Assembly: GCA_023663685.1 (NCBI GenBank)
Contig: JAMPHB010000011.1
Coordinates: 1 to 37,079, forward strand
Length of the DNA: 37,079 bases
Source: Blautia sp.
Lineage (GTDB): Bacteria; Bacillota; Clostridia; Lachnospirales; Lachnospiraceae
Reading direction: 5' to 3'
Below the pieces are notes generated by a model that was given only the letters and a program-made list of their open reading frames with translations, was not told the DNA's origin and ran no database searches. Made by a program: the position numbers and the translations under genes. Below are positions 8,776 through 30,455 of this stretch, piece by piece. How positions within the stretch are numbered: the first letter of the stretch is position 1; every line of letters begins with the position of its first letter.

Positions 8776-9684
8776 TTACACTAAAGATTCCGGCTCCTGC
8801 GCCGCCGCCCGCGCCGCATCCAAAAAGCGCTTTACCGTCTCCGACGGCTGGTGGGAATGCAGCAGGCCGTATGGGATTCCATATTCCCATTCCACCGGCA
8901 GCACCTTTAGAAGCGGATGCACATTTGCCCAGCCGGGTATCGCCAGCAGCACATCGTTGCTGCTTTCACAGTGGTTAAATATATTTATGTCGTAAAACTC
9001 AAAATCCACGATATGAATCTGTCCATGGTTCTGCCGGATGTCATCCCGCAGCTCGTCCACATAACGGCTCCAGCCACGGTGCATCAGCAGCAGATTTTCC
9101 CCATACAAATCCTGAAATCCCAGCTTGTCCTTTGCCGCCAGTGGATTATGAATGGACACCGCCAGACAAAAGGGCTCCCGCGTCAGCTGCAGACCCGCGC
9201 AGGAACGCAGCTCAAGCATCGTTTCATCAAAAATACCGCCGACCACGTCGATGTCCTGTCCCAGATTCGCAAGAATCTTCCTCGCGTTTTCCACCGTGTT
9301 CTCGAAGGGGACAATTTCAAATTTGATATCCGGACAATGCTCCTGAATCTTCGGCCACATCTGCATTAACAGCTGCGCCGGGGTCATGGGGGAGCTTCCG
9401 ATACGGACTACATCCGCCTTTTCCTTCATGGCATTTTTCGCCCGCGTGACAGAATCCTTACAGTATTGGATAATGTATTTGCTGTCCTGGTACAGAGATT
9501 TTCCCGCCTTTGTCAGAATCAACCCCCGGTGTGTCCGCTCAAACAGCTTCACTCCCAGCGAATCCTCCAGCAGATTGATCTGTTTGATAACAGCTGTCGG
9601 CGTAATATACGCCTCCTCCGCCGCTTTGTTGAAGCTGCCCGTGTCCGCTGCCCGCAGAAAGGTTTCAAGTCTTTGATTATACAT
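8776..9684 (-). CDS. LysR family transcriptional regulator
   Basis: The 302-residue protein starts MYNQRLETFLRAADTGSFNKAAEEAYITP; AAGGAG lies 7 nt before ATG 9684, so I prefer this start to the one at 9711. The winged helix-turn-helix occupies residues 1-60, with PTAVIKQINLLEDSLGVKLFERT typical of LysR. The rest is the periplasmic-binding-protein-like effector domain (about 90-295). It sits between two operons on the same strand: the thiol/C-S lyase operon upstream and the esterase-flavodoxin operons downstream. Either could be its target; the redox cluster is the more usual partner. The effector is not predictable from sequence. Confidence 0.92.
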   Translation of the reverse strand: MYNQRLETFLRAADTGSFNKAAEEAYITPTAVIKQINLLEDSLGVKLFERTHRGLILTKAGKSLYQDSKYIIQYCKDSVTRAKNAMKEKADVVRIGSSPMTPAQLLMQMWPKIQEHCPDIKFEIVPFENTVENARKILANLGQDIDVVGGIFDETMLELRSCAGLQLTREPFCLAVSIHNPLAAKDKLGFQDLYGENLLLMHRGWSRYVDELRDDIRQNHGQIHIVDFEFYDINIFNHCESSNDVLLAIPGWANVHPLLKVLPVEWEYGIPYGLLHSHQPSETVKRFLDAARAAAQEPESLV

Positions 9685-9728
9685 GCGCCCACTCCTTGTC
9701 TGTGCGTTCATCTGAGTATCTTTCTATC

Positions 9729-9788: not shown

Positions 9789-11063
9789 TCAATCCTGATT
9801 ACCGCGCCTGCCCTCCGCCAGCTTCACTCCGTTTTTGACATAGCCGTCCCCGAAGCGCTCCCGGATCTGCCACGCATACCGCTTTCCGGCATCTATGAAT
9901 TTTTCCTCCTGAAAGCGCAAAACCTCCTGCACCGGCGCGGGAAACTCCCGGTAAAATTCCTCCATCTCCTGTATAATGAGCAGAGCCATATCTGCCGCCG
10001 GGCAGGTTTCCCGCCCCGGCATGACGATCTTAACTGTCTTCAAATCGTAATGCGCGGCATTTTTATAATTCTGTACCGCCTGAATCTGCTGCCTTTCGCT
10101 GAGCTTTAACTCCGGTGTGGCGGAAAGCCAGCAGATTAACAGCTGTGCAAAAGCCACGTCCCGCACATCCAGACCGTATTCCGCCAGAGGATTGACGTCA
10201 ATCATCCGCAGCTCTATATGGTTGACTCCCTGTTTTGCAAGGACGTCCAGATCATTGACCCCCTTCGGCTTTAGCCGCACCGGGTAATACAACTCCGAGG
10301 GCGCCTGTATCATTCCCCGGTCGATGTAGCCGCGTATGCTGTCCACATAAGCGGCAAGGCTTGTATAGTCAAACATGGGAGTAAAAAAATTCCAGTACCC
10401 GAGCTCACTGCAGCGCACAGAGGCAAGCCCCAGAAATACATCCTCCCCGCATTTACCTTTTTCCACATAGGAACGGTCAAGCAGAGGACTTGCGGCCGTG
10501 GCTGCAACCAGAATCCACCCGTATGCCGCCAGCTTTTCCGCCAGCTTTAGATACGTCTGGTTTTTGTAATCCGCAAAATCCTTCTGCCCGCTAAATGTAA
10601 ACGCCTCCCTTAACAGCCCGTCGGAAAAAGAATAGTTCAGATGGATTCCGCTAAATGTCATTTTGTATCTTCCATACCGTTCAGACAAATAATTCCGGTA
10701 AATGGTTTTTGTACTTTCACTGCCCGTAAACTCCGCCACCGGTATATCATCTTCATTCTTAATGTACGGCGGATTGGAAAATGCCCATAAAAGCTCCGGC
10801 TGCGGCAAATGGCTTAAGGTATTCTGTATCCGGCGGTAATACCTTCCCATCGCCTCTACCGCCTTCTGCGGACTGTACTCCACCCCGGTGTTGATCTCGA
10901 TCTGGTTTTCACAGAAATCACGGACAATATGGGCGTCATCCGGGAATGGATGCGGCGTGTGCGCCAGGTATCCGTCCTGATCCGTCCGCAGCGCTTCCAG
11001 CTCAAGCCCGAATTCCCCGGACAAAAGCTTTTCCTTTATTTTGTCCCTTGTAATATCAAACAT
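9789..11063 (-). CDS. Glutamate-cysteine ligase (GshA-type), stand-alone
   Basis: This 424-residue protein has GshA motifs: FGLELEALRTD near the start (ATP/Mg and substrate site), DFCENQIEINTGV, SGIHLNYSFS and NHIELRMIDVNPLAEYGL. It would form gamma-glutamylcysteine from Glu, Cys and ATP in the cytoplasm. There is no ATP-grasp GshB half as in bifunctional GshAB, so glutathione is not implied. I place the start at MFDITRD (GGAG 9 nt upstream); the ATG at 11078 lacks a ribosome site. It is the last gene of a four-gene operon with two PLP sulfur enzymes and a class II amidohydrolase, which suggests gamma-Glu-Cys is used as a thiol carrier. The true acceptor amine or thiol is unproven. Confidence 0.87.
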   Translation of the reverse strand: MFDITRDKIKEKLLSGEFGLELEALRTDQDGYLAHTPHPFPDDAHIVRDFCENQIEINTGVEYSPQKAVEAMGRYYRRIQNTLSHLPQPELLWAFSNPPYIKNEDDIPVAEFTGSESTKTIYRNYLSERYGRYKMTFSGIHLNYSFSDGLLREAFTFSGQKDFADYKNQTYLKLAEKLAAYGWILVAATAASPLLDRSYVEKGKCGEDVFLGLASVRCSELGYWNFFTPMFDYTSLAAYVDSIRGYIDRGMIQAPSELYYPVRLKPKGVNDLDVLAKQGVNHIELRMIDVNPLAEYGLDVRDVAFAQLLICWLSATPELKLSERQQIQAVQNYKNAAHYDLKTVKIVMPGRETCPAADMALLIIQEMEEFYREFPAPVQEVLRFQEEKFIDAGKRYAWQIRERFGDGYVKNGVKLAEGRRGNQD

Positions 11064-11081
11064 AGTTGCATTCTCCATTCG

Positions 11082-11855
11082 TTATAGTGCAGAGTAATCC
11101 AAAAACAGCGCTTCCATATCTTTGGGATTGTCAGTATATTCATAATGGTGGTTCGTTCCCGTATATACCTGCTCCCCCGCCTTCCACACGCACAGCGTGG
11201 ACATGGGCAACGGCTTCCACTGGTATTTTCCCAGCGGCCGGGTGGAAAAATAAGCGCCGCCCTCTTCCTTCAAATAATATAAAGAAGAGGCATAGTTTGT
11301 ATGCACATAAAGGCATTCCCCGTCAAAAATCAGAAGGTTCACCTTGTTCCCCTCCGCAATTTTGCACACAGCCGTATCGACGGCGTCAAAGCGCTCCCGC
11401 TCCGTCAGCGGCCGCCCCGCTTCCTCCTGCCTTCCGTCAATGCAGTCTGTCAGATAATAGAGAATCCGCTCGCTGTCCGTCTGCCCCTCCTGCTGGTAAA
11501 AATAGGGCTCCAGCGCCGGACACCGGAACATAGTCCCATTGTGCGCCAGTGTCCACAGCCGTCCGGAGCTATCCTGCCTCACAAAAGGGTGACAGTTTTC
11601 ATACTCCATATTTCCCTTCGTGGCAAGCCGGATATGGGCAATCGCGTCCCGGACAAAAAGCTCATGCCGCAGCCGTCTTTTCAGGTATATGCTCGCCTCC
11701 GCCCGAATCGGCTCCTTTTCTATGGAAGCCATGCCATTCTGGAACACGGCCAGCCCCCAGCCGTGCGGATGCGCCCCGCTATGGGAATAGAATTCCCACA
11801 AAAAATCGTTGATCTTTGTTTTTTCCCTGCTGCTTACGCCAAATAATTCACACAT
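11082..11855 (-). CDS. Class II glutamine amidotransferase / gamma-glutamyl hydrolase (YafJ/EgtC-like)
   Basis: The 257-residue N-terminal-nucleophile hydrolase starts MCELFGVSS, so Cys2 is the catalytic residue once Met is removed. Family landmarks follow: HPHGWGLAVF, AHIRLATKGN, ENCHPF and LAHNGTMF. No synthetase domain is fused, so it acts alone. YafJ/EgtC relatives hydrolyse gamma-glutamyl amides; EgtC removes gamma-Glu from a sulfur conjugate in ergothioneine synthesis. Being next to a GshA-type ligase (18 bp from that gene's start) and overlapping the C-S lyase gene by 8 bp makes a gamma-Glu-removing role plausible. The substrate is inference. Confidence 0.87.
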   Translation of the reverse strand: MCELFGVSSREKTKINDFLWEFYSHSGAHPHGWGLAVFQNGMASIEKEPIRAEASIYLKRRLRHELFVRDAIAHIRLATKGNMEYENCHPFVRQDSSGRLWTLAHNGTMFRCPALEPYFYQQEGQTDSERILYYLTDCIDGRQEEAGRPLTERERFDAVDTAVCKIAEGNKVNLLIFDGECLYVHTNYASSLYYLKEEGGAYFSTRPLGKYQWKPLPMSTLCVWKAGEQVYTGTNHHYEYTDNPKDMEALFLDYSAL

Positions 11856-13035
11856 TGCCGACCGCCCCTTTTAACTGTTCTAAGGCTTTCTCCAGAGTCA
11901 CCCTCGGACAGGCCACATTAAACCGCTCGAAGCCCTCTCCCGATTTTCCAAATATAGCGCCGGAATCCAGCCAGAGCTTTGCTTTTTTCACAATCAGCTC
12001 CTCCAGCCGGGTCTCCGTCAGCCCCAGCCCCCGAAAATCCACCCATACAAGATAAGTCCCCTCCGGTTCCACCATGGTAAGCTGCGGCAGCTCCCTCTGC
12101 AGATATTCTCTCATAAACCGGATATTGTCCTCAATATACTTCGTCACCGCCTCATACCATTCGTTTCCATAACAGTACGCCGCCTCGCAGGCCGTCAGGC
12201 CGATGGCATTAAGCTGGCTGTACCCCGCCGCCGCAATCTGCTTTTTAAACTTCCTACGGAGACTTCCGTCCGGAATCAGGATATTGGAAACCTGCAGCCC
12301 TGCAAGATTGAAGGTCTTTGCCGGAGATGTACATGTGACGGATATTTCCTCCAGCTCTTTTTGCAGACCTGCAAAAACGATATGCTTTCTCCCTCCCCAG
12401 ACAAAGTCCGCATGGATTTCATCGCTCACAACCACTACATGATGCTTTAAACAGATCTCCCCTATTTTCAGCAATTCCTCCTCCGTCCACACCCTGCCCG
12501 CAGGATTGTGCGGACTGCAGAGCAGAAACAGACGAATCCGGTGCTCCACGATTTTTCTCTCAAAATCTGCAAAATCTATGTGGTACCGTCCGTCTTCTCC
12601 CAAGATTAAATCGCTGCTGACCACCTCTCTGCCGTTATCTTCGATGACCTCCGTAAAGGGATAATATACCGGCTGCTGGATGATAACCGCATCGCCTTCC
12701 TTTGTATATGCTTTGACCGCCATGGCCAGCGCAAACACCACGCCCGGCGTTTTTACCAGCCAGCCGCTTTCTATTTCCCAGCCGTGCCTTTTTTTCATCC
12801 AGCCCGCGACCGCCGCAAAATATCTCCCGCCGCTCTCGGTATAGCCGAAGATTCCATGCTCCACCCTTCTGTGAATGGCGTCCAGTATCTGTTCCGACGT
12901 CTTAAAATCCATGTCCGCCACCCACAGGGGGAGAACATCCTCCGGCTTTCCGCGCCTTGCGGCAAAATCATATTTTAGACAGTCCGTATTCCTCCGGTCG
13001 GTTACTGTGTCAAAATCAAAGTTTTCTTTTTGCAT
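11848..13035 (-). CDS. PatB/MalY family C-S beta-lyase (PLP aminotransferase fold)
   Basis: This 395-residue fold-type I PLP enzyme has LPLWVADMDF near the N-terminus, a marker of the MalY/PatB branch. It also has CSPHNPAGRVW, SDEIHADFVW and the Schiff-base lysine K240 in TSPAKTFNLAG. Members cleave the C-S bond of cystathionine or other S-substituted cysteines to a thiol, pyruvate and ammonia. It follows the trans-sulfuration gene by 15 bp and overlaps the amidohydrolase gene. In this operon it could release a thiol from a cysteine conjugate (an EgtE-like step) or complete methionine synthesis. Cytoplasmic. Confidence 0.92.
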   Translation of the reverse strand: MQKENFDFDTVTDRRNTDCLKYDFAARRGKPEDVLPLWVADMDFKTSEQILDAIHRRVEHGIFGYTESGGRYFAAVAGWMKKRHGWEIESGWLVKTPGVVFALAMAVKAYTKEGDAVIIQQPVYYPFTEVIEDNGREVVSSDLILGEDGRYHIDFADFERKIVEHRIRLFLLCSPHNPAGRVWTEEELLKIGEICLKHHVVVVSDEIHADFVWGGRKHIVFAGLQKELEEISVTCTSPAKTFNLAGLQVSNILIPDGSLRRKFKKQIAAAGYSQLNAIGLTACEAAYCYGNEWYEAVTKYIEDNIRFMREYLQRELPQLTMVEPEGTYLVWVDFRGLGLTETRLEELIVKKAKLWLDSGAIFGKSGEGFERFNVACPRVTLEKALEQLKGAVGNV

Positions 13036-13050
13036 AGCATCCCCTCGTCT

Positions 13051-14202
13051 TTATTCAAATGTCCCGATTGCCTGCTTAAGATCCGCTATCAGATCGTTTT
13101 TATCCTCTATGCCTGCCGAAAGGCGGAGCACTCTGTCCGTAATGCCGTTTTTGATGCGCACCTCCTCGGGCACATCCGCATGTGTCTGGGTTACCGGGTA
13201 AGTGAGGAGCGTCTCTGTTCCCCCCAGACTTTCTGCAAAGGGAATCAGCTTTGTAGATTTCAGTATATGATGCGCCAGCCTGCTGCTTTCCACCTCAAAG
13301 GTCAGCATACTTCCAAACCCGCCTGCCTGCTTTTTACAGACCTCGTACCCCCTGCTACCTGGTATGCCCGGATAATAAACCTTTTTTACCTTTGGCTCAT
13401 GCAAAAGATACTCTGCGATCGCCTTCGCATTCTCCTGCGCCTTTTCCATGCGCAGCGGCAGCGTTTTTATGCCCCGGATAATCAGCCAGCTGTCAAAGGG
13501 CGAAAGCCCCGACCCCACAGTCTTGATCAGAAACCGCAGCCTGTCCGATATTTCCTCTGAACCGGTCACGATAAAGCCTGCCAGTGTATCATTGTGCCCT
13601 CCCAGAAACTTGGTGCCGCTGTGAATCACGATATCCGCGCCAAGCGCAAGAGGATTTTGAAAATAGGGCGACATAAACGTATTGTCCACAATCAAAAGCA
13701 GGCCGTGCTTCTTGGCAATCCCTGCAATCCTGCGGATATCCGCCACATGCATCATGGGATTTGTCGGCGTTTCAATAAAAATGGCCTTTGTGTTTTCCTG
13801 TATGTAAGCTTCGGCGTCTTCTGTGCTGCAGTCTATATGGCTGAACAAAAGCCCGTTTTTCCTGCTCACATTCTGAAACAGCCGAATGCTGCCGCCATAC
13901 AGATCCATATCCGTAATCAGATGGTCTCCCGGCGCAAACAGCTCCATCATCGCTGTGATTGCTGCCATTCCGCTGGAAAATGCCAGCGCATCGATTCCCC
14001 CCTCAAGGGAAGCCACTATTTTTTCCACCTGCTGTCTCGTGGGATTCTGTAATCTGCTGTAATCAAAGCCCGTGCTTCTTCCCACCTCCGGGTGCGCATA
14101 GGTCGCGGTCTGATAAATCGGGAAGCTGATGGCTCCCGTCTGATCCTTGTCAAAATCCCTCCCATTGCCATAAATACATCTGGTTGCAAATTCATAGTCC
14201 AT
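13051..14202 (-). CDS. Trans-sulfuration PLP enzyme (cystathionine gamma-synthase/lyase family)
   Basis: The 383-residue Cys/Met-metabolism PLP enzyme has FPIYQTATYAHPEVG, YSRLQNPTRQQVEK, AFSSGMAAI, ETPTNPMMHVADI and the Schiff-base K198 in HSGTKFLGGHND. It could be cystathionine gamma-synthase, gamma-lyase or beta-lyase; the sequence alone does not separate these. AAGGAG, 6 nt before the ATG, supports the start. It is the first gene of the sulfur operon. A palindrome overlapping the promoter -10 lies about 80 bp upstream, so the operon is probably regulated by a repressor or LysR-type protein. Confidence 0.92.
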   Translation of the reverse strand: MDYEFATRCIYGNGRDFDKDQTGAISFPIYQTATYAHPEVGRSTGFDYSRLQNPTRQQVEKIVASLEGGIDALAFSSGMAAITAMMELFAPGDHLITDMDLYGGSIRLFQNVSRKNGLLFSHIDCSTEDAEAYIQENTKAIFIETPTNPMMHVADIRRIAGIAKKHGLLLIVDNTFMSPYFQNPLALGADIVIHSGTKFLGGHNDTLAGFIVTGSEEISDRLRFLIKTVGSGLSPFDSWLIIRGIKTLPLRMEKAQENAKAIAEYLLHEPKVKKVYYPGIPGSRGYEVCKKQAGGFGSMLTFEVESSRLAHHILKSTKLIPFAESLGGTETLLTYPVTQTHADVPEEVRIKNGITDRVLRLSAGIEDKNDLIADLKQAIGTFE

Positions 14203-14283
14203 TGTTTTCTCCTTATCTCTCCCAAAGCTGCCTCCATTATAAATGAAAAATTACTCATTGTATAATACATGTACCTTAGAATT

Positions 14284-14403: not shown

Positions 14404-14432
14404 TTGACATATTTGTACAAAAATGATATAAT
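14404..14432 (+). promoter_or_regulatory. Perfect consensus sigma-A promoter of the chemotaxis receptor gene
   Basis: TTGACA (14404-14409), a 17-bp spacer and TATAAT (14427-14432) match the housekeeping consensus at all twelve positions. AGGAGG (14466-14471) follows, 8 nt before the ATG. Confidence 0.85.
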
Positions 14433-14479: not shown

Positions 14480-16024
14480 ATGGACAAGAAAAAGACTGCG
14501 GTAGATGTGTACCTGTCAACCGTGTACAAATGGGGGCTGATCATACTGTGCGGCGCGTGTATGTGCGCGACCATTATGTTCAACACTGAGAAGATTTTTG
14601 GATTGTATCCTACTGTGCCATGGCTCGCGACCATTATGCTGGGCGTGATGGACTGTACCTTTTTTGCCATCGCACTGTACATTATCAAAATATCGTTTGA
14701 TAAGGACGGCTATCTGAAAGAAGGCAAACTGCAGGTCGGGAAGATGTTTTCGGTAATTGCTCTGGTCATTCAGTGGAATTATCTTCTGTACATGCTGCCG
14801 ACAAGAACCTTCTGGGGCTTTCTGTTCTTTTTCCTGATCCTCATGGCATTCTTTTTAGACTTAAAAATGCTGCTGGTCAGCGGACTTGCATGTATACTTT
14901 CGCTATTCATCGCGTGGTTTTTCAAGGGCACAGATCTCATGCCGGTGAAGGACGAGCTGTTTTTGACAGATGTGCTTATGTGTCTGGTTGCGCTGGTACT
15001 GTCTCTGACAGGGCTTCTGATATTTGTATTTTTGGTTGCACATTTTCTTGTGAATGCCAAAAAAGATGAGCTGGAAAAGAACAATGATAAGGTGCAGAGC
15101 CTCTTGTACTCTGTCCAGCAATTATCCGACGGCCTGCAGACCGCGGGCACAAGCCTCTCGCAGGTATCCGAGAGCGAGAGCTCTTCCGCGGAGGAGCTGG
15201 CGGCCACAAGCCTGCTTCTGGTGGAGAGCAGCAATCTGCTGAGCCGGAAAACCGATGAGAGTATGACGAATCTCTCCGAGCTGAACCAGTGTGAGGAGGT
15301 TATGGCGGAGAATATCGAAAAGGTAGAGAGCACGTCTAAGAATCTCCTCGACAAATCCATGGAGAACTCCCGCCTGCTCAATGACCTTCACGCCATCAAC
15401 GGCGAGGTGTCGGACTCCATGCACACCACGATCGAGGTTGCCAAAAAGCTCTCGGACGCCGTACAACAGATTGGCGTCACCCTAAATCTTATCAACGAGA
15501 TTTCATCGTCCACCAATCTGCTGGCGCTGAATGCCTCCATTGAGGCCGCCAGGGCAGGCGACGCGGGACGGGGCTTTGCTGTCGTTGCAACCGAGGTTGG
15601 AAATCTTGCCAACAGCACAAAGGAGTCCCTGCAGGAGGTAGAGACTGTCATTGAGCGGGTAATGAACAATGTGAGTGAGATCACCTACCATGTGGGGGAA
15701 AATTCACAGAAACTGACCACGCAAAACGAATACTTCGACAACGTATTTAAGGGTATGCAGGATATGACGGATCTGCTGAATGTGTCTGTCGATGCCATCA
15801 ACACGATGGGCGAAGCGCACAGTAAACAGTCGGAGGTCATCCGCAATACCGTCTCCATCAATAGAGATATTACCGAGAGCATCCGAAATGAGAATGAGCA
15901 GTTTAATTCGATCAATGCGATGGCTGAAAATAATGCAAACGATACCACGGAGGTCGCATCGCAGGCCAGCCGTATCAATGAGATGGTCAGTGAAATGACA
16001 AGACTGTTAAATGCAGAGGATTAA
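14480..16024 (+). CDS. Methyl-accepting chemotaxis protein with a multi-helix membrane sensor
   Basis: The 514-residue protein has about six membrane helices in residues 15-195 (for example [21 protein letters not shown] and [20 protein letters not shown]) with only short loops and no extracytoplasmic sensing domain. A cytoplasmic coiled-coil signalling domain follows. Its conserved hairpin tip [20 protein letters not shown], then [11 protein letters not shown] (near residues 340-375), binds CheA/CheW in this family. No HAMP domain is clear. It probably senses a membrane or cytoplasmic signal. Transcribed alone from a perfect promoter; no other chemotaxis gene is nearby. Confidence 0.93.
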
Positions 16025-26289: not shown

Positions 26290-29200
26290 TTACAGTTCCT
26301 CCTCCACCATGCTCCTCTCACGGTTGAACGCATCGTAAATGCAGGGAATGACGACCAGCGTCAGAAGCGTTCCGTAAATCATGCCCCCGATAATCGTGAT
26401 TGCCATGGGCTTCATCATCTGCGCCCCCTCATTGCCGCTTAACGCCGAGGTGGACATGGCAAGTATCGTCGTCAGCGCCGTCATAAGAATCGGGCGAAGC
26501 CTCGTTTTCCCTGCCTCTATAATTGCCTCCTTCTTGCTCTCTCCCTCCCTGCGCGCCTGATTGATATAATCAATCAGAACAATTCCGTTGTTTACAATCA
26601 GTCCCGCCAGCATGATAAAGCCGAGCATCGCAATAATGCTGACCTCCTGTCCCGAAATAAAGAGGGCGATAAAGCCTCCCGTGAAGGCCAGCGGGATCGA
26701 GAACATAATGATAAATGGCGACAGCAGGGACTGGAACTGGGCAACCATAATCAGATAGATGAAAATGACTGCAAGCACAAGCATGAGCACGAGCTGGCTC
26801 ATCGCCTCGCCGATGGTCTCATCCTCACCCGCCATCTCCACGGTATAGCCCTCCGGGATATCCAGCTTGTCGATTTCCTCCTGCACCGCATCGGCAACCA
26901 GCGTCACATTGTGCTCCTCGTCGATCACGCAGGACACCGTCAGATACCGCATCTGGGAATCGCGCTGAATCGTGCTCAAGGTCGTCGTGTTTTCCATCTC
27001 GCAGATGTCGGTCAGCGGAAGCTCCTCCTCCTCACCGTCCTCATTTGTATGGGTAAAGGTCAGTTTTTTGATATCGGAAAGAGTCGGATTCGCCTGCTCC
27101 TCCGTCTGCAGATATACCTCATAGTCCTTAATATCCGTGGAAATCGTAGTCGCGCTGCTCTCCTCTGCCATCTCTGCATAGACGAGCTGGAAAACCTGCG
27201 CCACAGTAAGCCCGTACTCCGCCGCCTTTTCCTTGTCCACACGGATGGAAAGCTGCGGCGTCGCATCGTCCAGACCGTCCTCCACATCCATGGTACCCTC
27301 TGTATTTTCCACGATTTCCGCCACAGAGGCCGCCAGCGACTGCAGCGTTCCAAGGTCGCTTCCCGCGATGTTGATCGACAGGCCTTCCCCGAAGTAAGCG
27401 GAAAAATCCATAGAGGAGCTGCCCGCCGTAACCACGCAGGACATATCCTTTGTCCGCTCCTCGATCTCCTTCGCCACATCGTCCGCGCCCACACCGCTGT
27501 CCTCGTCCAAAAGCAGATACATGGAGACCGCATTGCTGCCGCCACTCATCAGACTCATGGTGCTGTTTCCTCCAATCGTGGAGGCGATCGTGTCCACACC
27601 CTCAATGTCAGAGATTTTTCCAAGCACCTCCGTACTCGCGTCCTTCAGCTCCCCGAAAGTGTAGGTCTCCCCCTCCGGGGGCACGATTGTCACGGAAAGC
27701 TGGTTCGTCTGCATATCCATGTCCATGAAAGTCATACCTCTGGACATGGCAAGAAAATAGCTCCCTGCCAAAAGCACGACCGCCACCACAAATACAACAG
27801 GCTTAAACCGCAGACACCAGTGCAAAAAGCTTCCGTATCCATCCTTCATCGCATCGAACAGCGGATGGCGGATCTCCCTGGTTCGCTTTAAGGTCGCCGT
27901 GGACATGGCGGGCACAAAGGTCAGCGCCACCAGAAGGCTCGCCACCAGCGTGAATGCAATGGTCAGCGCCAGATCCACAAAGAGCTGTCTCGTGATGCCG
28001 TCGGTAAAGATAATGGGGGCATACACGCTGACCGTCGTAAGGGTAGACGCCACAATTGCTCCCGCCACCTGGCCCGCGCCTTCGACGGCGGCCTTTTTGA
28101 TGGAAAGTCCCTCGTCCCGCAGACGGTAAATATTCTCAATCACGACAATCGAGTTGTCCACCAGCATACCGATACCCAAAAGCAGACCGGACATGGAGAT
28201 GATATTCATGGTAATTCCCGTAAAGTACATGAGAACGACCGCCACAATCACGGAAAGCGGAATCGAGCAGGCAATCACGAGGGTCGGCTTTACATCTTTT
28301 AAGAAGAAAAGCAGCACAAGGATTGCGAGAACCGCTCCCCAGATCATATTCTGCACCACACTGTCCACAATCATGTCAATGTACACGCCCTGATCCATCA
28401 GGGTGGTAAGATGAAGCTTGTCATTATCCTTTTTCAGGCTGTCAAATTTGTCCAGAATCCGGTCGGTCACCTCGCCGGTGGAATAGCCGGTCTGCTTTTC
28501 CAGCGACAGCGTGATGCCGGGGTTGCCGTTGATGAGCGCGTAGGTCTCGTCGGAGTTGTCAGTCGTTGCAATGTCCGCCACATCGGACAGGCGGATCACG
28601 TCCACCCCGTCCATGTTCATATCTATGAGCACAAGCTCCGAAAGCTCCTGCACATTTTTCACGGAATCCCCCACCCGCACGAGATACTGGGTATCCCCGT
28701 CCATGACATAGCCCGCCGGCATGTCAAAATTCTGCGCGGCAAAAAGGCTCTTGATCGTGTCCGTCGATAAAATCTCATTCACATCGGCTGCCTCGTAAGC
28801 GCTGTCCCTCGCCTCGTCTAAAGAGCTTTGGGCGTTCTCTAAGGAGGAGGCCGCATTGACCAGCTCCGCCGAGCTGCTGCTCATCTGAATGGCCGCAAGG
28901 GCGGCATTGGCATTTAACGTATCAAGCGCGTTCGACAGTGTGATTTTGCCCTGCTCAATCTGCTCCAGTGCACTGTCAATCGTCTCGATGCCGGAATTTA
29001 CCTGCGTCAGCAGCCCGGCAACCGTCGCCGCCGCCGTGGGCAGATCCTCGTAGGTCTTTACCTCGATCCCCAGCTCCGAAAGTCCCGCAAACTGCTCTGC
29101 GATCACTGCGTTCAGCGCCGCAACCTGCTCCTGCACCTCGGGAATCTGCAGAGCCTGCGGGTTCTGCTCAATCAGTCCGGTGAGCCCGGTATATGCCTCG

Positions 29201-30048
29201 GACTCCATGAAAGCGGAGATTCCCGCCTGCAGCTGTTCCAGAGACTTTTTCTGCTTGTTTAAATCCTTCTTCTGCTTGTTTAAATCTTCCTCGCTCTTAA
29301 AAAGCTCATCACGCTTATCCAGTACGTCGTTGATGGACTGTGTCAGACTGTCAGAACCGGAATTCAGCGCATTCTGCCCGTCCTCCACCTCGCTGGCGGC
29401 GTTGTCGATATCCTTCTGCGCATCCTTAAACTGCTTGTCGATGGCCTTACGGATCTTCTTGTTGAGTTTTTTTATCTTATCCGCATTCAGCGTGACCTCG
29501 ACGCTCTCCTCAAGCTGTCCCGTGGCAGAGACAGAGGCCACTCCCTCCAGGCTCTCTAGGCTGGGAATCAGATCCGTCTCCACATAGTCCGACAGCTCCC
29601 CTGCGCTCATGCCCTCCATATCCACGGCGGCTACAAGCACCGGAAGCATATCCGGGTTGATTTTCATAATCATGGGCGTCCCCACGGAATCCCCCCAGCT
29701 CCCCGAGATCTGGTCAAGCTTCTGCTGAATCTCAATCACAACAGAGTCCATGTTCGCACTCTGCTCGTACTCGCAGGTCACAATCGAATAGCTGTTGTAG
29801 GAGATGGAGCTCACATTCTTAATGTTCGAAGTGGTGGCCATGGACGCCTCGATCGGCGCTGTCACCTCACTCTCCACCTTCTCCGGGCTCGCCCCCACAT
29901 CTGTGGTGATAATCAGCGCATACTGAAAACTCATGTCCGGCAAAAGATCCGTCGTCATCCGCATCAGGGACACTACGCCGAGCACGATCACCAGCACCAC
30001 GCACACCAGCACGGTAAAGGGCCGCTTTACACTGTATTTCGATATCAT
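26290..30048 (-). CDS. RND family efflux transporter with an extra coiled-coil domain
   Basis: The 1252-residue protein is AcrB-like: first membrane helix at about residues 10-30, TTDLLPDMSFQYALI, then porter domains, and two blocks of membrane helices (about 565-750 and 1070-1240). Start ATG 30048 has GGGAGG 7 nt upstream. About 230 residues (roughly 195-430) are inserted after VTLNADKIKKLNKK; they are Gln/Lys/Glu/Ala-rich and coiled-coil-like, at the entry to the AcrB docking domain. The TM4 pair is D631-N632 (MLVDNSIVV), and the TM10 motif reads LIVNNGIVL, so the lysine of AcrB is absent. Likely a proton-driven exporter of lipophilic compounds. No adaptor or outer-membrane gene is nearby. 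Confidence 0.92.
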   Translation of the reverse strand: MISKYSVKRPFTVLVCVVLVIVLGVVSLMRMTTDLLPDMSFQYALIITTDVGASPEKVESEVTAPIEASMATTSNIKNVSSISYNSYSIVTCEYEQSANMDSVVIEIQQKLDQISGSWGDSVGTPMIMKINPDMLPVLVAAVDMEGMSAGELSDYVETDLIPSLESLEGVASVSATGQLEESVEVTLNADKIKKLNKKIRKAIDKQFKDAQKDIDNAASEVEDGQNALNSGSDSLTQSINDVLDKRDELFKSEEDLNKQKKDLNKQKKSLEQLQAGISAFMESEAYTGLTGLIEQNPQALQIPEVQEQVAALNAVIAEQFAGLSELGIEVKTYEDLPTAAATVAGLLTQVNSGIETIDSALEQIEQGKITLSNALDTLNANAALAAIQMSSSSAELVNAASSLENAQSSLDEARDSAYEAADVNEILSTDTIKSLFAAQNFDMPAGYVMDGDTQYLVRVGDSVKNVQELSELVLIDMNMDGVDVIRLSDVADIATTDNSDETYALINGNPGITLSLEKQTGYSTGEVTDRILDKFDSLKKDNDKLHLTTLMDQGVYIDMIVDSVVQNMIWGAVLAILVLLFFLKDVKPTLVIACSIPLSVIVAVVLMYFTGITMNIISMSGLLLGIGMLVDNSIVVIENIYRLRDEGLSIKKAAVEGAGQVAGAIVASTLTTVSVYAPIIFTDGITRQLFVDLALTIAFTLVASLLVALTFVPAMSTATLKRTREIRHPLFDAMKDGYGSFLHWCLRFKPVVFVVAVVLLAGSYFLAMSRGMTFMDMDMQTNQLSVTIVPPEGETYTFGELKDASTEVLGKISDIEGVDTIASTIGGNSTMSLMSGGSNAVSMYLLLDEDSGVGADDVAKEIEERTKDMSCVVTAGSSSMDFSAYFGEGLSINIAGSDLGTLQSLAASVAEIVENTEGTMDVEDGLDDATPQLSIRVDKEKAAEYGLTVAQVFQLVYAEMAEESSATTISTDIKDYEVYLQTEEQANPTLSDIKKLTFTHTNEDGEEEELPLTDICEMENTTTLSTIQRDSQMRYLTVSCVIDEEHNVTLVADAVQEEIDKLDIPEGYTVEMAGEDETIGEAMSQLVLMLVLAVIFIYLIMVAQFQSLLSPFIIMFSIPLAFTGGFIALFISGQEVSIIAMLGFIMLAGLIVNNGIVLIDYINQARREGESKKEAIIEAGKTRLRPILMTALTTILAMSTSALSGNEGAQMMKPMAITIIGGMIYGTLLTLVVIPCIYDAFNRERSMVEEEL
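29245..29286 (-). repeat. 21-bp direct repeat in the RND coiled-coil insertion
   Basis: A near-identical 21-nt unit occurs twice with TTCTGCTTGTTTAAATC at 29249-29265 and 29270-29286. It encodes LNKQKKD and LNKQKKS, one heptad each. Confidence 0.8.
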
Positions 30049-30073
30049 ATGTATTCCTCCCATATTCCGGTCT

Positions 30074-30193: not shown

Positions 30194-30455
30194 TTGCAAA
30201 CTGTAAACAGCTGGGTGTGCAAAAAGGTTCCACGCTGTCGGCTTCGGCAAATGGATTTTCTAAATGTTCTGGAATGCTTATCTCCCTTGACGCGACCACC
30301 CGCAATTCGCCATCGTGGCTCAGTGCGGGCTTTGCGGGACGTCCATGCCCCGCAATCGCTGGTAATATACAGAACATTAAAAAAATCCAATTTCCCGTCG
30401 CAAAGACAGCTTTGTCAACCTTTTGCACACCCAGCTATTAACAATTGCAAAATGA
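30194..30455. repeat. Long imperfect inverted repeat with two hairpins at its tip
   Basis: The outer arms (about 30194-30285 and 30360-30455) are imperfect reverse complements, with a near-perfect core AGCTGGGTGTGCAAAA on the left and its complement at 30420-30435. They enclose two separate GC-rich hairpins: CCCGCA/TGCGGG with inner GCCA/TGGC (30299-30329), and TTGCGGG/CCCGCAA (30332-30355). The shape is a long stem with a Y-shaped tip. It could be a palindromic mobile element (MITE-like) or a structured RNA. Open frames across it follow from the palindrome and are not credible genes. It fills most of the 498-bp gap between the RND and PilZ genes. Confidence 0.75.

Follow-up and report, generated by a model that had tools for sequence, protein, structure and literature searches.

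A window of 37,079 nucleotides from Blautia sp. (contig JAMPHB010000011.1), by which we mean the whole stretch of DNA analysed, contains a tight four-gene operon that couples a GshA-type glutamate-cysteine ligase (GCL) to a stand-alone amidohydrolase, here called GAT, and to two pyridoxal phosphate (PLP) enzymes of sulfur metabolism. We propose that these proteins probably form a module that makes and breaks gamma-glutamylcysteine (gamma-Glu-Cys) within cysteine and methionine metabolism. The genes lie head to tail on the minus strand and are transcribed from 14202 to 9789, with intergenic gaps of 15 bp, -8 bp (an overlap) and 3 bp. Gene calls and Pfam/NCBIfam searches confirmed the location of the operon and all four gene families, which had been named in an earlier note on this DNA:

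13051..14202, minus strand: MetB/MccB-type PLP enzyme (cystathionine gamma-synthase/gamma-lyase family), first gene, 383 aa
11848..13035, minus strand: PatB/MalY-type C-S lyase, probable cystathionine or cysteine-S-conjugate beta-lyase, 395 aa
11082..11855, minus strand: GAT, stand-alone amidohydrolase of the class II glutamine-amidotransferase fold (N-terminal nucleophile, Ntn), EgtC/YafJ-like, 257 aa
9789..11078, minus strand: GshA-type GCL, monofunctional, 429 aa

The linkage of GAT to the ligase is not due to chance. In a sample of 150 family genomes, each from a different genus, a GshA-type ligase was found in 10 genomes and GAT in 13; with the source genome of the window excluded, both were present in 7, GAT only in 5, the GshA-type ligase only in 2 and neither in 135 genomes (Fisher p = 9.6e-8). 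In two of the genomes with GAT only (G007, G074), GAT is adjoined by another ligase, GCLX, a divergent relative of plant GCL of ~460 aa; a third (G002) has a plant-type GCL beside GAT (TIGR01436, 145 bits versus a cut-off of 463), a fourth (G060) has an amino-acid ATP-binding cassette (ABC) transporter at this place, and the GAT frame of the fifth (G124) is short, with its start 58 bases off the contig end. The ligase without GAT follows cysK and metB in G012 and is isolated in G062, and a second ligase copy is present in G103.

The neighbourhood survey that had been suggested for GshA-type ligases and EgtC-like genes likewise showed that the linkage is conserved. At least 571 candidate stretches of a named collection encode a GAT relative; the best 80 were kept and 77 analysed, as the GAT frame was lost in gene calling in three (L048, L054, L114), although GshA lies directly upstream of the GAT match in L048 and L054. 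A GCL-type ligase directly adjoins GAT in 67 of the 77 loci (median gap, 1 bp), where L066 is counted as lacking an adjacent ligase though GshA precedes its split GAT, and L104 though GCLX sits further downstream. Adjacent ligases share the strand of GAT in 79 of 80 cases from these loci. GAT is less than 1 kb from the end of the available DNA in 9 of the 77, which are not fully independent: L051 and L052 have identical GATs from one metagenome-assembled genome (MAG), and L049 and L050 are near-copies. In a sample of the phylum, the GAT profile matched 9 of 398 genomes, 4 of them strongly, with the source genome included. Among the matches listed in the open-access literature, we found no description of a GCL with an EgtC-like partner in Clostridia. 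We conclude that the operon is one example of a genuine, conserved gene pairing, the chemistry of which is predicted. That many related bacteria have kept this pairing suggests an undescribed mode of cysteine storage or handling.

Operons like those of Lachnospiraceae were also seen in MAGs labelled Muribaculaceae, Bacteroides or Bacteroidales (L044, L045, L100, L116), and the GAT of L044 is 95% identical to that of the window. These taxon labels may be wrong, or the contigs may be misbinned.

The ligase itself has been exchanged. Of the 77 loci, 42 carry GshA as the sole ligase within 4 kb of GAT, 22 carry GshA together with GCLX, 5 carry GCLX alone and 8 carry neither. GCLX is remote from the curated plant model TIGR01436 (49 bits for the L041 protein and 66 bits for a fused G079 protein), and the L028 protein had no NCBIfam match; the L041 protein matched plant GCL in the PDB with an E-value of 1.5e-8, and among four GCLX-bearing proteins scanned only the fused one passed Pfam GCS2. 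This fusion of GshA and GCLX in G079 is a single protein of 880 aa, and in Anaerobutyricum hallii (L088) one called gene was matched by both ligase profiles. In the best tree, built on 74 GATs and with 23 of its 70 inner branches weak, the ligase state requires 17 changes versus 31.2 in shuffles; it is thus clustered on the tree, yet has switched many times. Since the expected product common to GshA, GCLX and plant-type GCL is gamma-Glu-Cys, we argue that the substrate of GAT is gamma-Glu-Cys or a derivative of it.

The GshA-type protein of the window scored 194 bits with PF04262 (cut-off 27) and is thereby a type 1 glutamate-cysteine ligase; with the GshA equivalog TIGR01434 it scored 131 bits, below the required 393. 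Among solved structures, its relatives comprise the N-terminal halves of two GshAB proteins and two glutamate-cysteine ligases, of which 1v4g is the E. coli enzyme. The protein aligns with these GshAB and GCL structures, and 14 motif positions are identical in 10 of 10 aligned sequences. No other PF04262 gene was found in the source genome (two matches, one gene). This genome is 82% complete, and absences from it are therefore soft. The protein shares PF04262 with the glutathione-forming GshA and GshAB (GshF), but its 429 aa compare with 750-757 for GshAB and it is without the ATP-grasp half. The GshB-type family PF02955 had no match in the source genome (controls matched in 10 of 14 genomes, 8 over the cut-off), in agreement with the earlier description of a GshA-type ligase without GshB. 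Bifunctional GshF was ruled out for these two reasons, and no addition of glycine is expected. A profile search of the source genome for GCLX as a second ligase gave no match; it was run without a positive control.

GAT was identified by PF13230 (GATase_4, 120 bits versus a cut-off of 23). It starts with Met-Cys, and Cys2, Arg76, Asn106 and Gly107 are conserved in 77 of 78 rows (the window and its 77 relatives), the exception being L066, a fragment that is gapped at all four positions; Asp127 is conserved in 78 of 78. The assignment as a stand-alone class II amidohydrolase with an N-terminal Cys thus proved correct. The structure model was closest to EgtC, tied with the YafJ-like 1te5, and resembled, among others, 4zfl, which is EgtC solved with its natural substrate. 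Both the fold and the Cys-Arg-Asn-Gly-Asp site place GAT among the EgtC/YafJ-like Ntn amidohydrolases, and it is predicted to hydrolyze a gamma-glutamyl amide. With the curated EgtC model TIGR03442 it reached 38 bits, far below the cut-off of 218.65. Gene families, conserved catalytic residues, fold of GAT, tight linkage and ligase exchange are shown by computation.

The first two genes fit sulfur transfer between cysteine and methionine. The MetB-like protein matched PF01053 with 474 bits; its top NCBIfam models, PRK08247 (454 bits) and PRK07671 (452 bits), were both below their own cut-offs, and its top solved chains were 4l0o (cystathionine gamma-synthase) and 7d7o (an MccB-type enzyme). 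PatB passed TIGR04350 (488 bits versus 340), and its top solved chain was 6qp3, cystathionine beta-lyase PatB (E = 1.6e-118). Judged by family, the two are most simply read as cysteine-to-homocysteine trans-sulfuration. The same two PLP families stand side by side in the MetI/MetB and PatB/MalY pathway, whereas in the window this pair is joined to a gamma-Glu-Cys ligase and a hydrolase.

Around GAT, metB, patB or cysK occurred within 4 kb in 36 of the 77 loci. Both metB and patB were present within this distance in 14 loci, none of which has GCLX. Contiguous metB, patB, GAT and GSHA genes came in four orders: metB-patB-GAT-GSHA as in the window (L044, L045), metB-patB-GSHA-GAT (L047, L058, L073, L074, L087, L093), GAT-GSHA-metB-patB (L055, L056, L065, L067) and GSHA-GAT-metB-patB (L117); a further metB/patB locus (L076) has two intervening genes and is not contiguous. 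That metB and patB have been retained although the gene order changed argues more strongly for a functional tie than a single fixed operon would. The expected link to PatB held in part of the collection only, as most loci had no PatB within 5 kb, and the loci with both metB and patB are a minority of the 77, which weighs against our proposal.

In the proposed module, of which we infer the substrates, the direction of flow and the physiological role, the GshA-type ligase would use ATP to join Glu and Cys to gamma-Glu-Cys, GAT would take the gamma-glutamyl group off gamma-Glu-Cys or its S-conjugates, yielding Glu and Cys or Cys-S-R, and MetB with PatB would move the cysteine sulfur via cystathionine to homocysteine; PatB may additionally cleave Cys-S-R. 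The net result would be a non-toxic pool of gamma-Glu-capped cysteine that doubles as a thiol buffer, so that the role may also be worded as a cysteine buffer or an S-conjugate recycler. The host is probably a gut bacterium and a presumed anaerobe, and neither a glutathione synthetase nor an ergothioneine enzyme was found in its genome.

It is unlikely, though conceivable, that two independent functions share the operon, namely methionine synthesis from cysteine by MetB and PatB and salvage of gut gamma-glutamyl peptides or glutathione by GAT, with the gamma-Glu-Cys made by the ligase being a plain thiol buffer. This would fit loci in which GAT without a ligase lies downstream of an ABC transporter (for polar amino acids by Pfam in L120; probable and read by eye in L122 and L099). 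This order suits a hydrolase role of GAT, which would serve uptake and salvage there. It would also fit a family of 201-206 aa near GAT in 7 loci (L070:8791-9408, L076, L077, L104, L113, L117, L042), which has a weak C39-peptidase match under the cut-off (L070) and invariant Cys14, His120 and Asp136; it could trim a gamma-glutamyl peptide. However, with a ligase adjoining GAT in most of the loci, the link of synthesis to hydrolysis is far commoner than that of uptake to hydrolysis.

Quite unlikely, in our judgement, is a mercapturate-like recycling in which an electrophile is trapped on gamma-Glu-Cys, the conjugate loses its Glu through GAT, and PatB as a beta-lyase releases R-SH, pyruvate and ammonia. 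The solved relatives of PatB do include cysteine-S-conjugate beta-lyases, GAT resembles an EgtC solved with its natural substrate, and 18 of the 77 loci have PatB no more than 5 kb from GAT, a count that leaves out aminotransferases outside the PatB cluster. But no S-transferase or exporter was recognised in the window operon, MetB, the partner of PatB, would be superfluous, and PatB is missing from this distance in the majority of loci.

The earlier note had seen in the operon an ergothioneine-like pathway without EgtB and EgtD. With the actinobacterial ergothioneine genes egtA, egtC and egtE, the operon has in common a gamma-Glu-Cys ligase, an EgtC-fold Ntn amidohydrolase and a PLP C-S lyase. 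In contrast, the ligase here is of the GshA type or GCLX and not EgtA, the lyase is PatB/MalY, GAT is far under the EgtC cut-off, and the source genome had no match to the EgtD histidine methyltransferase family PF10017 (controls matched in 2 of 14 genomes) or the FGE domain PF03781 of the sulfoxide synthase EgtB (4 of 14). The full ergothioneine pathway was ruled out on these family and EgtC-model results. The earlier interpretation is thus supported in part. An Egt-like transfer of sulfur from gamma-Glu-Cys to an unknown acceptor, with an unlinked enzyme forming the C-S bond, GAT trimming Glu and PatB cleaving C-S, would be consistent with an operon that combines an EgtC-like fold with a C-S lyase and a GCL, but is highly improbable, as no C-S bond-forming enzyme was recognised in the operon, the EgtD and FGE families were not found and a strict anaerobe would be without the oxygen that EgtB uses.

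Some relatives carry an unusual tRNA-Cys(GCA) gene. In six it precedes GAT by 29-86 bp on the same strand, and in two it lies downstream of cysK; these eight are listed first, followed by L162-L165:

L055:1411-1482, unusual tRNA-Cys(GCA)
L056:7883-7954, unusual tRNA-Cys(GCA)
L057:7900-7971, unusual tRNA-Cys(GCA)
L059:7900-7971, unusual tRNA-Cys(GCA)
L065:7845-7914, unusual tRNA-Cys(GCA)
L067:7900-7971, unusual tRNA-Cys(GCA)
L087:10153-10223, unusual tRNA-Cys(GCA)
L093:7040-7109, unusual tRNA-Cys(GCA)
L162-L165, unusual tRNA-Cys(GCA)

All of the first eight have a mismatched A.G pair in the anticodon stem, and in three of them C replaces the usual U before the anticodon. Two-sided substitutions in 4 pairs support the pairing. 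If the acceptor stem is taken as 7 bp, the discriminator is G or A and not U, and thus a probable non-U73; in 5 of 8, however, ARAGORN extends the stem by an eighth pair, U.G, with U after it, so that the discriminator depends on the reading. The tRNA-Cys model R1 matched strongly (85-94 bits) in 4 of the 150 family genomes, none with GAT, and reached at most 57 bits elsewhere; three strong matches lie between cysK and a NifB-like gene and one ahead of metK, these neighbours being named by resemblance to L093 proteins or by eye. G112 additionally has an ordinary tRNA-Cys (U73), whereas the tRNA loci checked for G076 and G014, a part of each genome, included none. The known odd tRNA-Cys of the selC* type has an 8/4 form with a long variable arm (PMC7609411), unlike the tRNAs described here. 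The window has no tRNA-Cys by ARAGORN or Rfam, and R1 gave one chance-level match there (10.3 bits, E = 0.36). NifB-like, NifX-like and NifH-like genes (named by eye) were also observed beside the tRNA-Cys-like gene (L093:7211-10333, L162, L164, L165), with a second cysK in L093, L162 and L164, so that a nitrogenase-like cluster adjoins cysteine genes.

A bolder and doubtful extension is that the module makes a new gamma-glutamyl thiol of anaerobes, to which GshA and GCLX would add two different groups and which GAT would uncap; this would be a cysteine-based cofactor or sulfur carrier of Clostridia that replaces glutathione and bacillithiol, and in some lineages the regulon's own non-standard tRNA-Cys would sense or draw on the pool. 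To our knowledge, the low-molecular-weight thiols of gut Clostridia are poorly known. GshA and GCLX are fused in some genomes, and elsewhere an ATP-grasp ligase and an esterase join GshA and GAT. In L046:4775-6720, L069, L071 and L110, GshA-GAT comes after the ATP-grasp gene (~400 aa, resembling an L-amino-acid ligase structure) and a PF00756-type esterase gene, which may add a third step to the module; members of the ATP-grasp family occur near GAT in 9 loci.

The sequence around the operon of the window contains the following further features:

14236..14264, minus strand: promoter-like site upstream of the operon, TATACA-17-TATAAT, 10/12, consensus match only
8776..9711, minus strand: LysR-type regulator gene (PF00126 and PF03466), 77 bp 3' of gshA

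Promoter-like sites in the region number 12, versus a shuffled mean of 7.3 (sd 2.9). The LysR-type gene is a possible regulator of the operon; among the best 25 of 53 NCBIfam models, none scored above its cut-off for this protein. Among the relatives, same-strand regulators near GAT are of the Rrf2 type in 11 loci and of the LysR type in 9; in a profile check of two Rrf2 genes and one LysR gene, the Rrf2 genes fell below the CymR and IscR equivalog cut-offs. An Rfam scan of 40 of the 80 named loci found no S-adenosylmethionine (SAM) riboswitch and a single T-box (L061, opposite strand, ~1.9 kb 3' of GAT), which ruled out either element ahead of the operon in these loci. On the plus strand, a divergent chemotaxis-receptor gene starts at 14480 and is preceded by a perfect sigma-70-type promoter (14404-14432, 12/12, with TG ahead of the second hexamer). 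A TwoAYGGAY RNA (30239-30403, minus strand, 107 bits) lies upstream of a large gene on the same strand (26290-30063), transporter-like by eye.

A functional parallel to GAT is found in yeast, where Dug2p-Dug3p is a class II glutamine amidotransferase complex that cleaves the gamma-glutamyl bonds of glutathione and gamma-Glu dipeptides (PMC7617739); the Dug2/3 complex is reported to be restricted to fungi (PMC7340319). As a predicted class II enzyme for gamma-glutamyl bonds, GAT would resemble this DUG system. Unlike in yeast, its gene is coupled to a ligase, and no Dug2 (M20) partner was seen in the window operon, to which this search was confined. A conserved ligase and hydrolase, the former exchanged repeatedly, would argue strongly on genetic grounds that gamma-Glu-Cys or a derivative is a working metabolite of gut Clostridia. 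The module would then be a bacterial counterpart of DUG-type hydrolases, which are described as fungal (PMC7340319), and it could influence the retention and release of cysteine and hydrogen sulfide by gut bacteria.

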